Source of the DNA: Dethiosulfovibrio peptidovorans
GTDB lineage: Bacteria > Synergistota > Synergistia > Synergistales > Dethiosulfovibrionaceae
DNA: 54,019 bases
Assembly (NCBI GenBank): GCA_002748665.1
Contig: PDTB01000027.1
Span: forward strand, 1-54,019
Reading direction: 5' to 3'
Shown here: positions 19,145 through 26,080 of the stretch, piece after piece
Layout of the letters: every line of letters begins with the position of its first letter
Position numbering within the stretch: the first letter of the stretch is position 1
Notes under the pieces: generated by a model
Told to the model about the DNA's origin: nothing
Seen by the model: only the letters and a program-made list of their open reading frames with translations
Databases searched by the model: none
Position numbers and translations under genes: made by a program

Positions 19145-21310
19145 ATGAGACTACGAATTCGAGGGAAAATGCTGGTTCTTCTATTGGGGGCTCTGGTGAT
19201 CATTCAGGGAACTATTGTAGCCTATACAGCAGTGACAGTACGCTCTAACTCTGTGGACAAAGCAACTCAGGCACTGATCAATGTGTCGGAGAAAAGTGCC
19301 ATTGAGATATCTCAGACAATAAGCAGATTAATTATGACAACTCAGCAATTGAGTAAAACCTTGGGTGTCATAGGCAGATCCATGCCGGGAGCTCGGCAAA
19401 AAACCATGGATATCGTGCGCCAAACCTTGGTTGAAACACCAGGGATTCGTTCGACCTGGTTTGTCTTCGAGCCCAACGCTTTCGACGGCAAAGACCTCGA
19501 TTTCTCCGGGATCAATGGATTCCCGGAATCGGGGCGTTTCGTGGGAAGCTTTGTCCGGCAGGTGGGCGATAGTATCGTTCGAACCTACGACATAACCGAA
19601 GAAAGCCTTGCGATGGATTGGTATCAAAAGCCACTTCGATCGGGGCAGTCTTATATTAACGATCCTCATTGGTATTCCTTCGGAAACGAAGGCGATGACC
19701 TCTTCATTATCGGCGTCATTATTCCCATCAAGAACAACGGAGAAGTTATTGGCGTAGCTGGCATTGACTTGGATGTGCCGCCTCTCCAGGAGCTAGTCTC
19801 TTCAATTGTTCCGACAGATCACTCCTTTGCTGCTTTCTACACAAGCAAAGGAAATATCGTGTCCCATCCCAATAAGGAACTGGCAGGCAAGAACCTTGCA
19901 GAGGCATCCGAGGGAGATATTGGCAATAAGAATCAGGTTATTGAGGCAGCAACATCGGGAAGTGAGCAGATTTCTGTAGAGTACTCCGAGAATTTGGGAG
20001 AGAAGGCCCTTAAAACGCAATATCCTGTTTCTTTAGGCGGTGCGTTTGATCCCTGGAGTCTTGCTATCACAGTGCCTTTATCGGACGTGACGGTTGCTGC
20101 TGATAGATTAACCCGCAATTTGAGCCTTATATCTCTTGTGGGAATGATCCTCCTTGGAGTTGTGATCTTCGTAATTAGTGGCTCGATTGTCAAGCCATTC
20201 CTTGCTGTTTCGGCTCTTCTCGAACGATATGCTTCGTTGGATTTCTCAACCGATAAATCTAAGCGATGGATGTATACGTACAAAGACAAACATGATGAAA
20301 TAGCCGATATAATTCAAAACCTTCTAAAGATGAAGCTGTCGATAGCGTCTTTTGTCCGATCCGTCCAGGACGAATCGGGGCATCTATCAAGTATTTCCCA
20401 GTCACTAGCTGCTTTGGCAGAGGAAAACATGGCTTCTATTGAAGAGGTTCAGGCTTCTGTGAACCAGGTGGAATTGCTCTCTGAGGCGAACGCTGCTGCG
20501 CTTGAGCAGACCACCGTTGGTGTTGAAGGAGTCTCGAGCGGTGCCTCTGAAACTGCAAGTAGCGCCACTAAAGGAACCGAAGCGTCAGCTGAGATGAGTC
20601 ACATCAGTCAGGATGCTGCTGAAAATGTCAAGGCTATGGTCGAAATGATTAGATCTGTGGGGGATCGTTCTTCCCATACCATGGAGAGCATGACTCAGGT
20701 GGGGAGCTCTGTGGAAGCTATCGCGGCCTTTGTCACTACCATCACGTCTATCGCAGACCAGACTAACCTTTTAGCCTTAAACGCTGCTATTGAGGCAGCA
20801 CGTGCTGGAGAACATGGTCGAGGTTTCGCTGTGGTGGCTGAGGAAGTGCGTAAACTGGCCGAGGAGAGTAACAAGGCTGCCAGAGAGGTTGCGGATCTTA
20901 TAGCTTCCCTTAAAGACAATGCAACATCGTCTACCTCCTCGATGAAGGATGTCGATCAGTTAGTGGAGCAGATCATCAAGGCCTCAGGTGAGGCCATAAC
21001 GAACCTTGGTGAAGCACTTAAGCAGATTTCATCCGTTGAGGGAACCATGCAGAGTATTGCAACCCTTGCCGCGGAACAAGCGGCATCCAGCCATGAGATG
21101 GCGCTCGGCATCGACCAGGCCACAAAAAGTACCGTACAAGCGACGGAGATTCTGCATAACGTGAAGAATAGCAGCGATGGAACGGCCTTTGCGTCGGAGC
21201 AGGTAGCTAAGGAAGCACAGGGCTTGGCATCCGGTGCTGAACGGTTGGATTCTCTCATAGGACAATTTCAGTTGGATGACTCCCAGGGTAACGCTTTGCT
21301 TCCATCGTAG
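19145..21310 (+). CDS. Methyl-accepting chemotaxis protein with dCache-type sensor
   Basis: This is a 721-aa transmembrane chemoreceptor. The first membrane helix is at about residues 9-29 ([14 protein letters not shown]). A periplasmic sensor of about 290 residues follows, with double-Cache character ([31 protein letters not shown]). The second helix lies around residues 328-346 ([13 protein letters not shown]). A degenerate HAMP segment is next, and then the signalling domain with its hairpin tip [20 protein letters not shown]. Such receptors usually sense amino acids or other small organic compounds. The gene is alone, flanked by its own promoter-like region and terminator. Its base composition is slightly more AT-rich than the neighbours. 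Confidence 0.95.
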
Positions 21311-21324
21311 CGTAGCTTATGCGT

Positions 21325-21356
21325 TGGGCCACCTCTCTGAGGTGGCCTAGTTTTTA
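21325..21356 (+). terminator. Terminator after chemoreceptor gene
   Basis: A 9-bp perfect stem ggccacctc (21327-21335) / gaggtggcc (21339-21347) with loop tct is followed by tagttttta. It is a canonical intrinsic terminator. Confidence 0.9.
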
Positions 21357-21379
21357 GCGATATGTGTTTTCAGAGGCTT

Positions 21380-22321
21380 CTACATGATCAAGGCTCGATA
21401 GTCTCGGGGGCTCAGACCATGAGTCTTCTTGAAGAGTCCGGCGAAATAGCCGGGATTACGGTATCCGAGGCTCTCGGCAATTTGCTGGATTGAGGCCTCA
21501 TCCTCCCTCAGAAGGAGCAGGGCTTTATCCATTCGAAAATCCTGAAATCGTTCGTAGGGCGATCCGCCCTGAAGCTCTCGAAAGACCCGATAAAAACGAG
21601 AGACGCTCATCCCAATGGATCTCGCCAGATCAGCTGTCGATGGGGGATCGGCAGGGGTACGGATCATATGCTCCCAGGCTTCTTGCACGAGATGTCGATC
21701 TCTTGCGGTGATCTTTGAGGAGGTTCTTTTTTTGTGTTCGTTGCTGCATCCGGCGATAAGCGAGAGAATTTCGAGCGTTTTCGCATCGATATAAGCTCCC
21801 CGAGTGTCCCCGTTTACGGGGAGGTCCCTCAGTTGATCGAAGGCCAGGGCCAGATTTCGTCGCCTGGATGAGTGTGCAAGAGTCCGTACGTCTTTTCGTG
21901 ATACCGTCAGTTTCGCTCCGTATCGGTGGCTTAGGATGTGATTCCAGTATTGATGCATCAGCCTGAGCTTGACGAATCGGACAGGTCGATTGGCTGGGGA
22001 GAAAACCCGTACGGGTTTCTCTGTGCCGGTATAGCCGGACAGACCAAGTGGGGCACGAACAGGGTATCCCTTTCCGATATAAATCGATGAGGAGATGGCG
22101 TCGAAACGGCTGATTTCCATGTATTCCCGTCGATGTTGCAGAGACAGCCACAAGGGCCTTTTGGGCGTAAAGTCGGCCACGAGAACCGAGTATCCCTCGC
22201 CGTCCCATCGAACGACCTGTCCCTCTCCTATCTCGGGATGGAAGTCGTACCGCAGCACTCCGTCACCGTCTCTCGACTGAGATGTCATGGATGCCAGGGG
22301 CACCGCAAAAAAATCCGTCAT
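21380..22321 (-). CDS. AraC-family transcriptional regulator
   Basis: This is a 313-aa regulator. The last 100 residues are a typical AraC double helix-turn-helix: STADLARSIGMSVSRFYRVF, then SIQQIAESLGYRNPGYFAGL and FKKTHGLSPRDYR. The N-terminal 200 residues resemble a sensing domain that I do not recognise in detail. The gene has a gggaggtga ribosome site at ATG 22321. It is divergent from a MATE exporter with a shared 247-base control region, so it is a natural candidate for controlling that exporter. Confidence 0.92.
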   Translation of the reverse strand: MTDFFAVPLASMTSQSRDGDGVLRYDFHPEIGEGQVVRWDGEGYSVLVADFTPKRPLWLSLQHRREYMEISRFDAISSSIYIGKGYPVRAPLGLSGYTGTEKPVRVFSPANRPVRFVKLRLMHQYWNHILSHRYGAKLTVSRKDVRTLAHSSRRRNLALAFDQLRDLPVNGDTRGAYIDAKTLEILSLIAGCSNEHKKRTSSKITARDRHLVQEAWEHMIRTPADPPSTADLARSIGMSVSRFYRVFRELQGGSPYERFQDFRMDKALLLLREDEASIQQIAESLGYRNPGYFAGLFKKTHGLSPRDYRALIM

Positions 22322-22568
22322 GAAAAGTCACCTCCCTGATAAAGCTATTGTATCGGAAGAACCTGTCCAATACCTCTCTTTTTCTGTCATTTTTTTCTCC
22401 AATTGCCTCGTCTCAAAAGAGCAGAAAACGTTGTCCTGAAGGGAACGGTATCCTGTATTTGATCGTTTTTCTGGTCTCGGTGCTTGGGGGCGGTAGTGGG
22501 CCTATACTTGTGTCCACAATGCCTCCCTTGGTGGCTGTCGACGAAAGACGAAAGGAGACTGAATCGAG

Positions 22569-23936
22569 ATGAACGGACAGGAGCGAATAAAAATGATGGG
22601 GGAGGGCAGTGTCTCCAAAGCTTTATTCCGATTAGGGGTTCCTATGGTCTTCAGTATGGTGGTTATGGCTCTGTATAACGTGGTTGATACGTACTTCGTA
22701 TCGGGGTTGGGTACGGTTCCTGTCGCTGCTGTGTCGGTAGCCTTCCCTTTTTCTCTGCTCTTTACGGGAATTGGTCTGTCCTTTGGGTTTGGAAGTGGCT
22801 CGTTCATCTCTCGCTTTCTCGGATCGGGTGATCCTGAACGTTCCGTGATCTATGCATCAACGGCAGTGGTGGCATCAGGCGCTGTTGCCGGTATTATAGC
22901 CGTGGCTTTTCAGATTTTTTTGCCCGATCTTCTTGAAGTCGCTGGAGCCAGGGGAGTGGTTCTGCCCGTCGCCATGGGATATGGACGGTGGTTTTCAGGG
23001 GCTTTGGTTATCAGCGCCGTCAACGTAGCTTTGGGGAACGTGACCGTTTCCCAGGGTGCTCCTGTTATGACACTGACGGCGATGTCCATTGGTGCTCTGA
23101 GCAACATGGTCTTAGATCCTCTGTTTATTTATGTTTTTGGGTTTGGCGTTCGAGGAGCCGCCATCGCAACGGTCCTTTCCCAGTTTCTGAGCCTGGGGCT
23201 GTACGTACGGTTTTATCGAGGCCCAAAAACCTCTGTGAACATCGACCTCTCCCGATGCTCGACCTCAGTTGGCGACTACGTGGCTATCCTGAAAATCGGG
23301 CTTTCTATGTTTGTCTCTCAAATTCTGTCTGCCCTCTCGATGGCGCTTATCTCTAATAAAGCGTCTCTCTACGGACCGTCGGGCGTGGCTGCCATGGGAG
23401 TCGTCCTGAGGATCGTCGCTCTTGGCTCTTTTGTCGTCTTTGGGTTTGTCAAAGGCCTTCAGCCTCTGGCAGGTTATTCCTATGGAGCGGGGAATGGGTC
23501 CAGAGTTCGAAAGGCTGAAAAGGTATGCTTGATATGGACCACGAGTTTTTGCCTCCTATGGATGGGTGTCATAGCTTTCTTTGGGAATCAGGTTATGTCG
23601 TGGTTCAGCACAGATCCGTCGGTGCTGAAGATCGGTCGGAAAGCCCTTCAGGTTCAAACCTTGCTCTTTTTCACGTTCGGTTTTCAGTTTACCTACGCGA
23701 CTCTCTGTCTGGCGCTTGGGCACGCTCGTGAGGGAACGCTCCTCACAGTAAGCCGTCAAGGCCTGTTTCTCATACCGACCCTTATACTTCTTCATGCTTT
23801 CTTTGGATTGGATGGGGTTATCTACTCTCAGGCTGTGGCCGATGTTTTGGCGACGCTCTTGACCGTATCCCTGATCATGCCGGTTAGAAAAGAGGTGGAC
23901 GCCATGATCCGTGTTCCTCGTGAGTCACATGTTTAA
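22569..23936 (+). CDS. MATE-family efflux transporter
   Basis: This is a 455-aa MATE exporter with twelve predicted helices in two similar halves, using a Na+ or H+ gradient to expel organic cations or drugs. Conserved parts are FRLGVPMVFSMVVMALYNVVD at the N terminus (one helix), GIGLSFGFGSGSFISR and KGLQPLAGYSYGAGN, the last diagnostic of the MepA/DinF group. An aaaggaga site precedes ATG 22569. A TATACT -10-like box is at 22503-22508, but I see no good -35. The 190 bases to the tRNA gene contain a T-rich run but no clear hairpin. Confidence 0.95.
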   Translation: MNGQERIKMMGEGSVSKALFRLGVPMVFSMVVMALYNVVDTYFVSGLGTVPVAAVSVAFPFSLLFTGIGLSFGFGSGSFISRFLGSGDPERSVIYASTAVVASGAVAGIIAVAFQIFLPDLLEVAGARGVVLPVAMGYGRWFSGALVISAVNVALGNVTVSQGAPVMTLTAMSIGALSNMVLDPLFIYVFGFGVRGAAIATVLSQFLSLGLYVRFYRGPKTSVNIDLSRCSTSVGDYVAILKIGLSMFVSQILSALSMALISNKASLYGPSGVAAMGVVLRIVALGSFVVFGFVKGLQPLAGYSYGAGNGSRVRKAEKVCLIWTTSFCLLWMGVIAFFGNQVMSWFSTDPSVLKIGRKALQVQTLLFFTFGFQFTYATLCLALGHAREGTLLTVSRQGLFLIPTLILLHAFFGLDGVIYSQAVADVLATLLTVSLIMPVRKEVDAMIRVPRESHV

Positions 23937-24081
23937 AGGTCAGTGGATAGACAAACCTATCACCCCCGTTCTGTAGTGATCTGAAGATGGTTGTGGTTTG
24001 TTTTTCCTTTTTCAGATCCGGCGCCATGTGACGGATGTATTGAACACCTACACCGTCCCGTGAAACACGACGACACAGGGC

Positions 24082-24110
24082 TTGACCAGATGGGCTTTTC
24101 GATGTATCGT
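24082..24110 (+). promoter_or_regulatory. Promoter of tRNA-Arg
   Basis: TTGACC at 24082-24087 and TATCGT at 24105-24110 are separated by 17 bases, with the mature tRNA starting 16 bases after the -10 box. This is a good arrangement for a stand-alone tRNA gene. Confidence 0.6.
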
Positions 24111-24126
24111 ATCTGAGTTCCGTTGC

Positions 24127-24203
24127 GCGCCTGTAGCTCAGCTGGATAGAGTGCTGGCCTCCGGAGCCAGAGGTCGTGGGTTCGAATCCCGCCGGGCGCG
24201 CCA
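24127..24203 (+). tRNA. tRNA-Arg (anticodon CCG)
   Basis: The 77-base cloverleaf is complete. The acceptor stem gcgcctg pairs with cgggcgc (one G-U pair), the D arm starts gctc, and the anticodon stem is ctggc/gccag with loop ctCCGga. The anticodon CCG (24161-24163) reads the arginine codon CGG. The T arm is gtggg-ttcgaat-cccgc. The discriminator base is G and CCA is encoded. A run of five T follows directly and could end transcription. Confidence 0.97.
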
Positions 24204-24238
24204 TTTTTACACTATATAAACAGTAGTAGTTACTAAAA

Positions 24239-24268
24239 TTGACAGAAAGACGAGTTTCTTGTTATACT
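24239..24268 (+). promoter_or_regulatory. Distal promoter of selenocysteine peroxiredoxin gene
   Basis: A perfect TTGACA at 24239-24244 and TATACT at 24263-24268 (18-base spacing) lie about 145 bases upstream of the peroxiredoxin start, giving a leader of roughly 135 bases. Confidence 0.65.
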
Positions 24269-24330
24269 AAGATCGTGGGGTCGAAGATGTTCAAGTGCGC
24301 TGTTTTTCGTATCAAAAGTGGCTACTAAAA

Positions 24331-24359
24331 TTAATATTAAAAGAATGTTTTATTATAAT
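24331..24359 (+). promoter_or_regulatory. Proximal promoter of selenocysteine peroxiredoxin gene
   Basis: TTAATA at 24331-24336 is followed after 17 bases by a perfect TATAAT at 24354-24359. Transcription would start about 45 bases before the gene. The surrounding DNA is markedly AT-rich. Two promoters suggest strong or condition-dependent expression, as expected for a peroxide-defence enzyme. Confidence 0.65.
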
Positions 24360-24409
24360 GGGATATGGTTGAATCGGTATGGAACATACTATAGAAGGAG
24401 GGATGTAAC

Positions 24410-25057
24410 ATGAGTAAGGAGAAGGAATGTTGTACAAGTGATGAACTAAGAGCTGTTGCGGGAGGTCGTGCACCGGACTTTAAGCTTCCTGCATACTACA
24501 AGGGTAATCCGATGACATCGGTACGACTGTCGGACTTCAAGGGGAAGTGGGTCCTTTTGTGTTTTTATCCGGGGGATTTTACGTTCGTCTGAGCCACTGA
24601 GGTGTCAGCGGTCGCTGACAAATATGAGGAACTTCAGAAACTTGGTGTCGAGGTTATCGCCATCAGTGTGGACAGCGCCTTTGTCCACAAGGTATGGAAC
24701 GATCAGGAGCTCAGCAAGATGGCGAAGAAAGATGTGCCTTTCTACATGGCGTCGGATAGCTCAGGATCTGTCGGCACCCTGTACAACGTATACAGCGAGA
24801 AGATGGGGGTTGATATAAGAGGTCGCTTCATCATTGATCCTGATGGCGTCATTCAGGCGATGGAGGTTCTGACGCCGCCTGTAGGACGTCGTTTTGAGGA
24901 AACTCTCCGTCAGATTCAGGCTTTTCAACATGTCCGAGAGACTCAGGGAGTCGAGGCTTGCCCTGCCAGTTGGGTTCCTGGGAAGAAAACCCTGAAACCT
25001 GGCCCTGATCTTGTAGGGAACGTCTGGAAAGAGTGGAACCCCCAGGACGATCTGTAA
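24410..25057 (+). CDS. prxU: Selenocysteine-containing 2-Cys peroxiredoxin (PrxU type), UGA recoded at codon 61
   Basis: This is an AhpC/TSA-type peroxiredoxin that reduces hydrogen or organic peroxides with electrons from thioredoxin-like donors. The frame has a TGA at 24590-24592 exactly where family members have the peroxidatic cysteine: [17 protein letters not shown] corresponds to FYPxDFTFVCPTE. After the TGA the same frame continues for 154 codons of well-conserved sequence. The resolving cysteine C184 ([10 protein letters not shown]) is present. Total length is 215 residues with Sec61. A SECIS-like hairpin starts 11 bases after the UGA. The usual Pro after the catalytic residue is Ala. 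A strong gaaggaggga site precedes ATG 24410. Two promoters and its own terminator make it a single-gene unit. A gene caller would report two fragments. Confidence 0.95.
24603..24620 (+). promoter_or_regulatory. SECIS hairpin of the peroxiredoxin mRNA
   Basis: A perfect 7-bp stem TGTCAGC/GCTGACA closes the tetraloop GGTC. It begins at the 11th base after the UGA (24590-24592). This spacing, and an apical loop containing GGU, match the bacterial SECIS element bound by SelB as described for Escherichia coli fdhF. Confidence 0.88.
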
Positions 25058-25096
25058 ACACATTGATGTGCTTTATAGTTAACGTTGAGGAAGTTC

Positions 25097-25137
25097 AGCA
25101 GAAGTGCGCCGTATTTCGGCGCACTTCTGCTCGTTTA
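25097..25137 (+). terminator. Terminator after selenocysteine peroxiredoxin
   Basis: A perfect 15-bp stem, 25097-25111 (agcagaagtgcgccg) with 25117-25131, has loop tattt and the tail cgtttata. Confidence 0.9.
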
Positions 25138-25501: not shown

Positions 25502-26080
25502 CGACTGGGTTTTCCAGGAACCGTCAACATTGGAGATGAGGCATTGTATGCCGTTGTTCGAGGAATTACTCGTTCTCTTCTTCAACACGGCATGAAAAAA
25601 TTTATCATCCTTAATGGTCATGGTGGTAACGGCCCCATCCTGGACAAGGTCGCTCTTGAGGTGTATCAGGCGGGAGGCCTTGTCGCTATCGTGGATTGGT
25701 GGGTTCTTGCGGGGCAGATCAATTCGGAGTGGATTGGGGGGCATGGTGCGGGGTCGGTCATGATGGCGCTGGCCCCCTCATCGGTAGTCAAGGAGAATTG
25801 TTTTTCCTCAGAGATTAGCAATCTTTCGGAATGTCTGCGAAACACCCGTATCAGTTCCGTACGTTACGGGAAAGGATCGGTGCGTATTATCCGGGATGCT
25901 TGGGATGTTTCCTCTAACGGAGCGTACGGTGGCTCAGATGCTCCAGAAGACGCTTCTGCTCAGATAGGGCAAGCTATCCTCGATACTCTGACTGAGTACA
26001 TGGATTCCTTTGTGACCGAATTTACAGCGCTTTCTCTGAACAACAGAAAGTCATCCTCCTACACCCTTCAATCTTTATGA
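25502..26080 (+). pseudogene. 5'-truncated creatininase-family amidohydrolase
   Basis: The frame encodes the C-terminal two-thirds of a creatininase-family protein. Homology starts abruptly at GFPGTVNIGDEALYAVVRG and continues with FIILNGHGGNGP, the metal-binding signature. The N-terminal part with the usual GStEqHGpHLP metal site is missing; a TAA lies in frame at 25496-25498. The later motif GGHAGExET reads GGHGAGSVM, so a metal ligand glutamate is also lost. The only ATG candidate (25544) is inside the conserved core and lacks a ribosome site. I regard it as a non-functional remnant. A functional short form is unlikely. Confidence 0.75.

Follow-up and report, generated by a model that had tools for sequence, protein, structure and literature searches.

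The stretch of DNA analysed here, called the window, covers 54,019 nucleotides of contig PDTB01000027.1 of Dethiosulfovibrio peptidovorans. It carries a forward-strand frame that codes for 215 residues when its single internal TGA, codon 61, is read as selenocysteine (Sec). The coordinates of this gene, prxU, and of the features around it are given in Table 1. The protein contains the Pfam domains AhpC-TSA and 1-cysPrx_C and passes the cut-off of the NCBIfam PrxU equivalog NF040737 (peroxi_PrxU, thioredoxin-dependent peroxiredoxin), aligning with model positions 35-232 of 233. Its active-site motif is TFVU, where U is the Sec of codon 61, and the C-terminal resolving-cysteine motif CPxxW occurs as ACPASW, with Cys184 as its cysteine. 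The initial annotation had placed an in-frame TGA at the catalytic position of a peroxiredoxin that keeps Cys184; both statements are borne out, the TGA being flanked by conserved protein on both sides and Cys184 standing at the resolving position.

Table 1. Features of the prxU locus, in window coordinates.
Feature	Position	Strand	Evidence or remark
tRNA-Arg (CCG), upstream of prxU	24127..24203	+	tRNA call
Sigma-70-like promoter match, 11/12, extended -10	24239..24268	+	consensus match only
Second sigma-70-like promoter match, 10/12	24331..24359	+	consensus match only
Ribosome binding site AAGGAGGG	24395..24402	+	7 nt ahead of ATG; read from sequence
prxU	24410..25057	+	215 aa, TAA stop; NF040737 358.6 bits (cut-off 270)
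Cys8 and Cys9 codons, short N-terminal leader	24431..24436	+	translation; homolog leaders compared
Cys51 codon, ten residues ahead of Sec	24560..24562	+	Cys in 100/107 Sec rows
In-frame TGA, Sec61, peroxidatic position	24590..24592	+	same codon TGA in 106 other distinct rows
SECIS hairpin in mRNA, 7 bp, loop GGUC	24603..24620	+	covariation
Cys184 codon, C-terminal resolving cysteine position	24959..24961	+	Cys in 24/107 Sec rows
Terminator-like hairpin, 15 bp, weak T tail	25097..25131	+	z -6.66; absent from terminator scan

The gene had also been described as an independent, probably strongly expressed unit with two promoters and a terminator, a description that stands only in part. Two consensus promoter matches do exist on the forward strand, but the evidence they provide is weak, since shuffled sequences contain 1.1 such matches on average (sd 1.1). 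The strong hairpin downstream of the stop codon is real, but it is not among the three sites of the terminator scan, because the scan requires more T residues after the stem. Further downstream lies a partial creatininase gene (25544-26080), which matches only positions 85-235 of the 238 in the Pfam model; inspection by eye of the three forward frames upstream of it revealed stops and no long frame that could hold the missing first part.

We collected homologs from relatives of the same order (30 loci, one of them that of the window; 10 regions) and from the best 80 loci of named genomes. Removal of three duplicates from the 119 extracted rows left 116, of which 107, counting the window, are Sec rows and 9 are Cys rows. 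Four rows without an active-site pattern were left out (L058, L059, L060 and L177), while L056 is counted among the 107 Sec rows though it scores under the PrxU cut-off. The codon is TGA in all 80 of the best loci of named genomes, which were ranked by similarity to the query and do not measure prevalence, and the records bear at least 16 phylum labels. The view that Sec peroxiredoxins are known from a few anaerobes therefore understates their spread; PMC1794560 and PMC13188914 treat them as an established selenoprotein family. The replacement of Pro by Ala after the catalytic residue, also pointed out in the initial annotation, is real and typical of the family: Ala follows Sec in 82/107 Sec rows and Pro in 15/107, while Pro is found in all nine Cys rows.

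The closest known counterpart is PrxU of Peptoclostridium (Eubacterium) acidaminophilum, encoded on plasmid EAL2_808p (WP_084481301.1); to judge by its title in the references of PMC8533274, Sohling et al. 2001 deals with the Sec peroxiredoxin of this organism. The two proteins are 64% identical over residues 4-210 and share both the TFVUATE motif containing Sec and the Cys ten residues ahead of it. They differ at the C-terminal position, where the P. acidaminophilum protein has Ala (EVAPSGW) and the window protein Cys, and in the leader, which is longer and contains GCARPK in P. acidaminophilum, whereas it is short and carries CysCys in the window. Twelve further Sec-PrxU rows (L061-L072), from Fidelibacterota, Calditrichota, one member of the Acidobacteriota and some unlabelled records, resemble the window protein: the C-terminal Cys is kept in all twelve, the hairpin lies at the same place, and L061-L071 are 71-76% identical to the window protein. 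Ten of the twelve have a GCARP leader instead of the short CysCys leader of the window. The window protein is also related in sequence to AhpC and the typical 2-Cys peroxiredoxins (for example PDB 1we0), with the same peroxidatic and C-terminal resolving positions. Unlike AhpC, it has Sec in place of Cys followed by Ala in place of Pro, and its score with the AhpC equivalog TIGR03137 (188.6 bits) is under the cut-off of 272.

The sequence following the TGA was analysed as a candidate SECIS element. A 7-bp hairpin with a GGTC loop starts 11 bases past the TGA, just as originally described. An Rfam scan of 24300-25100 matched no family up to E 1, and the folding energy of the hairpin is unremarkable relative to shuffled sequences (z -1.29; 19 of 200 shuffles fold equally well). 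Since the folding energy was not significant, we relied on covariation and on synonymous shuffles, both of which point to the hairpin. Of the 103 rows having both Ser66 and Ala69, 100 show Watson-Crick pairing between the third bases of the two codons, against 50.5 expected under independence. The highest value in 10,000 shuffles was 68, so that none came up to the observed 100; since the rows are related, this is not a strict probability. Four pair types occur (TCG/GCC 62, TCA/GCT 33, TCC/GCG 3 and TCT/GCA 2), so that shared descent alone explains the pairing poorly. When the stem was slid over offsets 0-94 past the TGA, only offset 11 gave at least five pairs in more than one tenth of the rows (0.86). 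At least five of the six stem pairs were found in none of the nine Cys rows. The loop is GGTC in 77 of the 107 Sec rows, AGTT in 25, GGTT in 3, GGTA in 1 and TCTG in 1. In Escherichia coli, a G and a U of the loop matter for SelB.

A sceptical reading would be that the hairpin merely reflects protein conservation and codon bias, Sec insertion relying on something else. The near invariance of the peptide SAVA would agree with it, as would the unremarkable folding energy and the fact that single rows are seldom significant: the observed stem is matched by 2.05% of the synonymous shuffles for the window and by a median of 5.45% over rows, which is weak row by row. However, the pairing of third codon positions is far above expectation, and all five core pairs are present in 76 of the 107 distinct Sec rows, the window included, compared with 15.0 expected from synonymous-codon shuffles, an excess that, with related rows, is not to be read as a strict probability. 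We thus consider this reading highly improbable. As judged from these comparisons, the hairpin after the TGA is a selected element, the strength of the case lying in the set of rows and not in single rows.

The genome was then searched for the machinery of Sec insertion, the absence of selB or selC having been named beforehand as an argument against a selenoprotein. All the components are present: selA (564.4 bits, cut-off 267.9), selB (349.9 bits, cut-off 242.25), selD (337.1 bits, cut-off 125) and tRNA-Sec (70 bits, gathering score 47), the last being typed by ARAGORN as SeC with anticodon TCA. The selA and selB genes adjoin each other on contig C18. The selD reading frame of this genome (C18:47451-48383) also contains an in-frame TGA, located within the motif SGUAAK.

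Alternatively, the TGA might simply terminate translation, or an AhpC gene might recently have suffered a nonsense mutation; what is left would then be a 60-residue product or a pseudogene. It is indeed a stop under table 11, and a partial gene, that of creatininase, adjoins prxU. Such an explanation has very little chance of being correct, as TGA recurs at this codon in 106 other distinct rows with conserved protein on both sides, the hairpin past the TGA covaries at synonymous sites and the Sec machinery of the genome is complete. Sec as the peroxidatic residue, the central proposal of the initial annotation, is therefore supported by homology, by the machinery of the same genome and by hairpin covariation. 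On this comparative evidence, the locus is a true gene for a selenoprotein and belongs to the already known PrxU family of many anaerobic bacteria. It belongs to the sort of gene that annotation based on stop codons can split. That automatic annotation will do so is true of some cases: Desulfococcus multivorans prxU is spread over two locus tags according to PMC5109826, whereas prxU of P. acidaminophilum is a single CDS.

We conclude that the gene almost certainly encodes PrxU, a predicted Sec form of the AhpC/typical 2-Cys peroxiredoxins, in which Sec61 would be inserted through the hairpin and would run a peroxide cycle with Cys184. SelB and tRNA-Sec, directed by the hairpin located right after the UGA, would insert Sec61, which would attack the peroxide and be converted to a selenenic acid. 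The oxidized Sec61 would next be joined by an Se-S bond to Cys184 of the partner subunit, and a thioredoxin-type reductant would open this bond. In the window protein Cys184 occupies the place of the resolving cysteine in typical 2-Cys peroxiredoxins, which makes a cycle between Sec61 and Cys184 the likeliest. From the family as a whole we infer that Sec is inserted in the cell, that the protein has peroxidase chemistry, what Cys184 would do and what the reductant would be.

The resolving position is far from constant among the homologs. A C-terminal Cys is present in all 26 Cys-type rows read, whereas 83 of the 107 Sec rows have Thr, Met, Ala or Val at the resolving position, and the tree implies at least six changes of the C-terminal Cys state among Sec rows. 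The same order contains a second group of peroxiredoxins with a similar pattern, its 14 Cys-type rows ending in PACW and its Sec rows in PASW and PANW (L056 and L171). Since the two Sec rows of this group lack the Cys that its 14 Cys rows have, loss of the C-terminal Cys accompanying Sec may have occurred more than once. At the other end of the protein, 88 of the 107 Sec rows carry a leader Cys within a CxRPT-like motif; they comprise 69 of the 83 rows that lack the C-terminal Cys and 19 of the 24 that keep it. Fourteen Sec rows have neither, including L042, L047-L050 and L056; the contig of L042 ends at the leader region, and L047-L050 and L056 have other N-terminal cysteines. The first 34 positions of NF040737 are unaligned in the window protein, while relatives bearing a leader match from position 2 or 3. 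Over the conserved block of the leader, 20 near pairs, some of them sharing a member, differ by 107 synonymous and 38 non-synonymous codons, and the changes fall at third (130), first (25) and second (20) codon positions; by this codon evidence, the PrxU leader is translated.

The textbook 2-Cys cycle does not readily tell how the oxidized selenium returns to the reduced state, because 83 of the Sec rows have no resolving cysteine and 88 have a leader Cys; this question can now be tested. One conceivable answer is that, family-wide, Sec goes together with loss of the C-terminal Cys and with an N-terminal Cys tail (CxRPTG-like) serving as a relocated resolving or partner-docking thiol, a proposal that we regard as tentative and rather unlikely. 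If it were true, the window protein would be an informative intermediate having both the old Cys184 and the N-terminal Cys8/Cys9. The leader Cys is no simple replacement for the C-terminal one, because most rows that keep the latter also have the former, and a docking or a regulatory role is equally possible. In the literature consulted, where Sohling et al. 2001 figured only as a reference, we found no description of the PrxU leader Cys, which does not prove that none exists.

Relatives of the same genus or family were searched for PrxU. Among 13 such genomes, three of which are only 66-83% complete, none has PrxU over the cut-off. All 13 possess selA, and 11 have instead a match at 41-43% identity; in the five of these eleven that were read (L051-L055), the active-site residue is Cys. 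In a tree computed with the Sec and C-terminal Cys positions masked, the window falls in a clade of 14 rows (99/80; next fork 99/87) that is separate from the main PrxU clade of the Synergistales. The labels of this clade are Fidelibacterota, Calditrichota and Acidobacteriota, with four rows lacking a phylum label, and the C-terminal Cys is present in 14/14. With a length of 0.42, the branch of the window is a long one, and long-branch warnings apply to the tree.

The surroundings of the gene are also lower in GC. Within 19145-25057, a stretch running from the MCP gene to prxU, the three genes measured have a GC content of 0.49-0.52, compared with 0.555-0.587 for five genes from tilS on and a window mean of 0.559. 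The gene order common to four relatives begins only at tilS, the sequence compared ahead of it amounting to about 9 kb in two relatives and about 2.4 kb in two. At the tRNA-Arg of six relatives (L148-L153), no neighbour from the window was detected at E 1e-8 by a search that does find the window's own genes, and the ORFs of L148 at this site are other genes. As PrxU over the cut-off is absent from the 13 relatives, and considering also the lower GC, the gene order shared from tilS only and the tree placement, it is likely that this member of the Synergistota obtained prxU by horizontal transfer.

Vertical inheritance within Synergistota with loss in the relatives is a less likely course of events, yet one that deserves some weight. 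A topology that unites the window and the main Synergistales clade was not rejected by an AU test (p 0.212), so that any donor clade named from the tree is only a candidate. PrxU is moreover frequent in the order, being over the cut-off in 33 of the 149 genomes searched, a figure that includes the genome studied here and two Cys forms (G018 and G035). Against loss stand the position of the window inside the 14-row clade in the free masked tree, the C-terminal Cys common to that clade, the empty record of the 13 relatives and the low-GC surroundings of prxU, so that horizontal acquisition remains our preferred reading.

Phage and plasmid collections were searched as well. The phage collection yielded 29 records, all less than 60% identical to the window protein, and the plasmid collection 481, of which a single one, that of P. 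acidaminophilum, reaches 60-80% identity. In the Microcystis phage MaAM05 (MW495066.1, 40487-40993), a gene annotated as prxU, selenocysteine-containing peroxiredoxin, encodes a protein 41% identical to that of the window. An Anaerolineales genome (L105) has two different Sec peroxiredoxin genes within one 6.4-kb stretch. In the same order as the window, the four divergent PrxU proteins of family f9 (L047-L050; 51-52% identity) have no leader and carry Phe in place of the Cys ten residues ahead of Sec. Their sequences end in PPGGC, followed by TGA and two more codons (GGCUGI if read through), and this end may hold a second Sec. Finally, the two Sec members of the second peroxiredoxin group, L056:2016-2663 on the reverse strand and L171:268-894 on the forward strand, are both under the PrxU cut-off and have the motif FTYVUPTE; each has an in-frame TGA and a hairpin recognized by eye (GCTCT-GGC-AGAGC and AGCTTT-GGC-AAAGCT, respectively).
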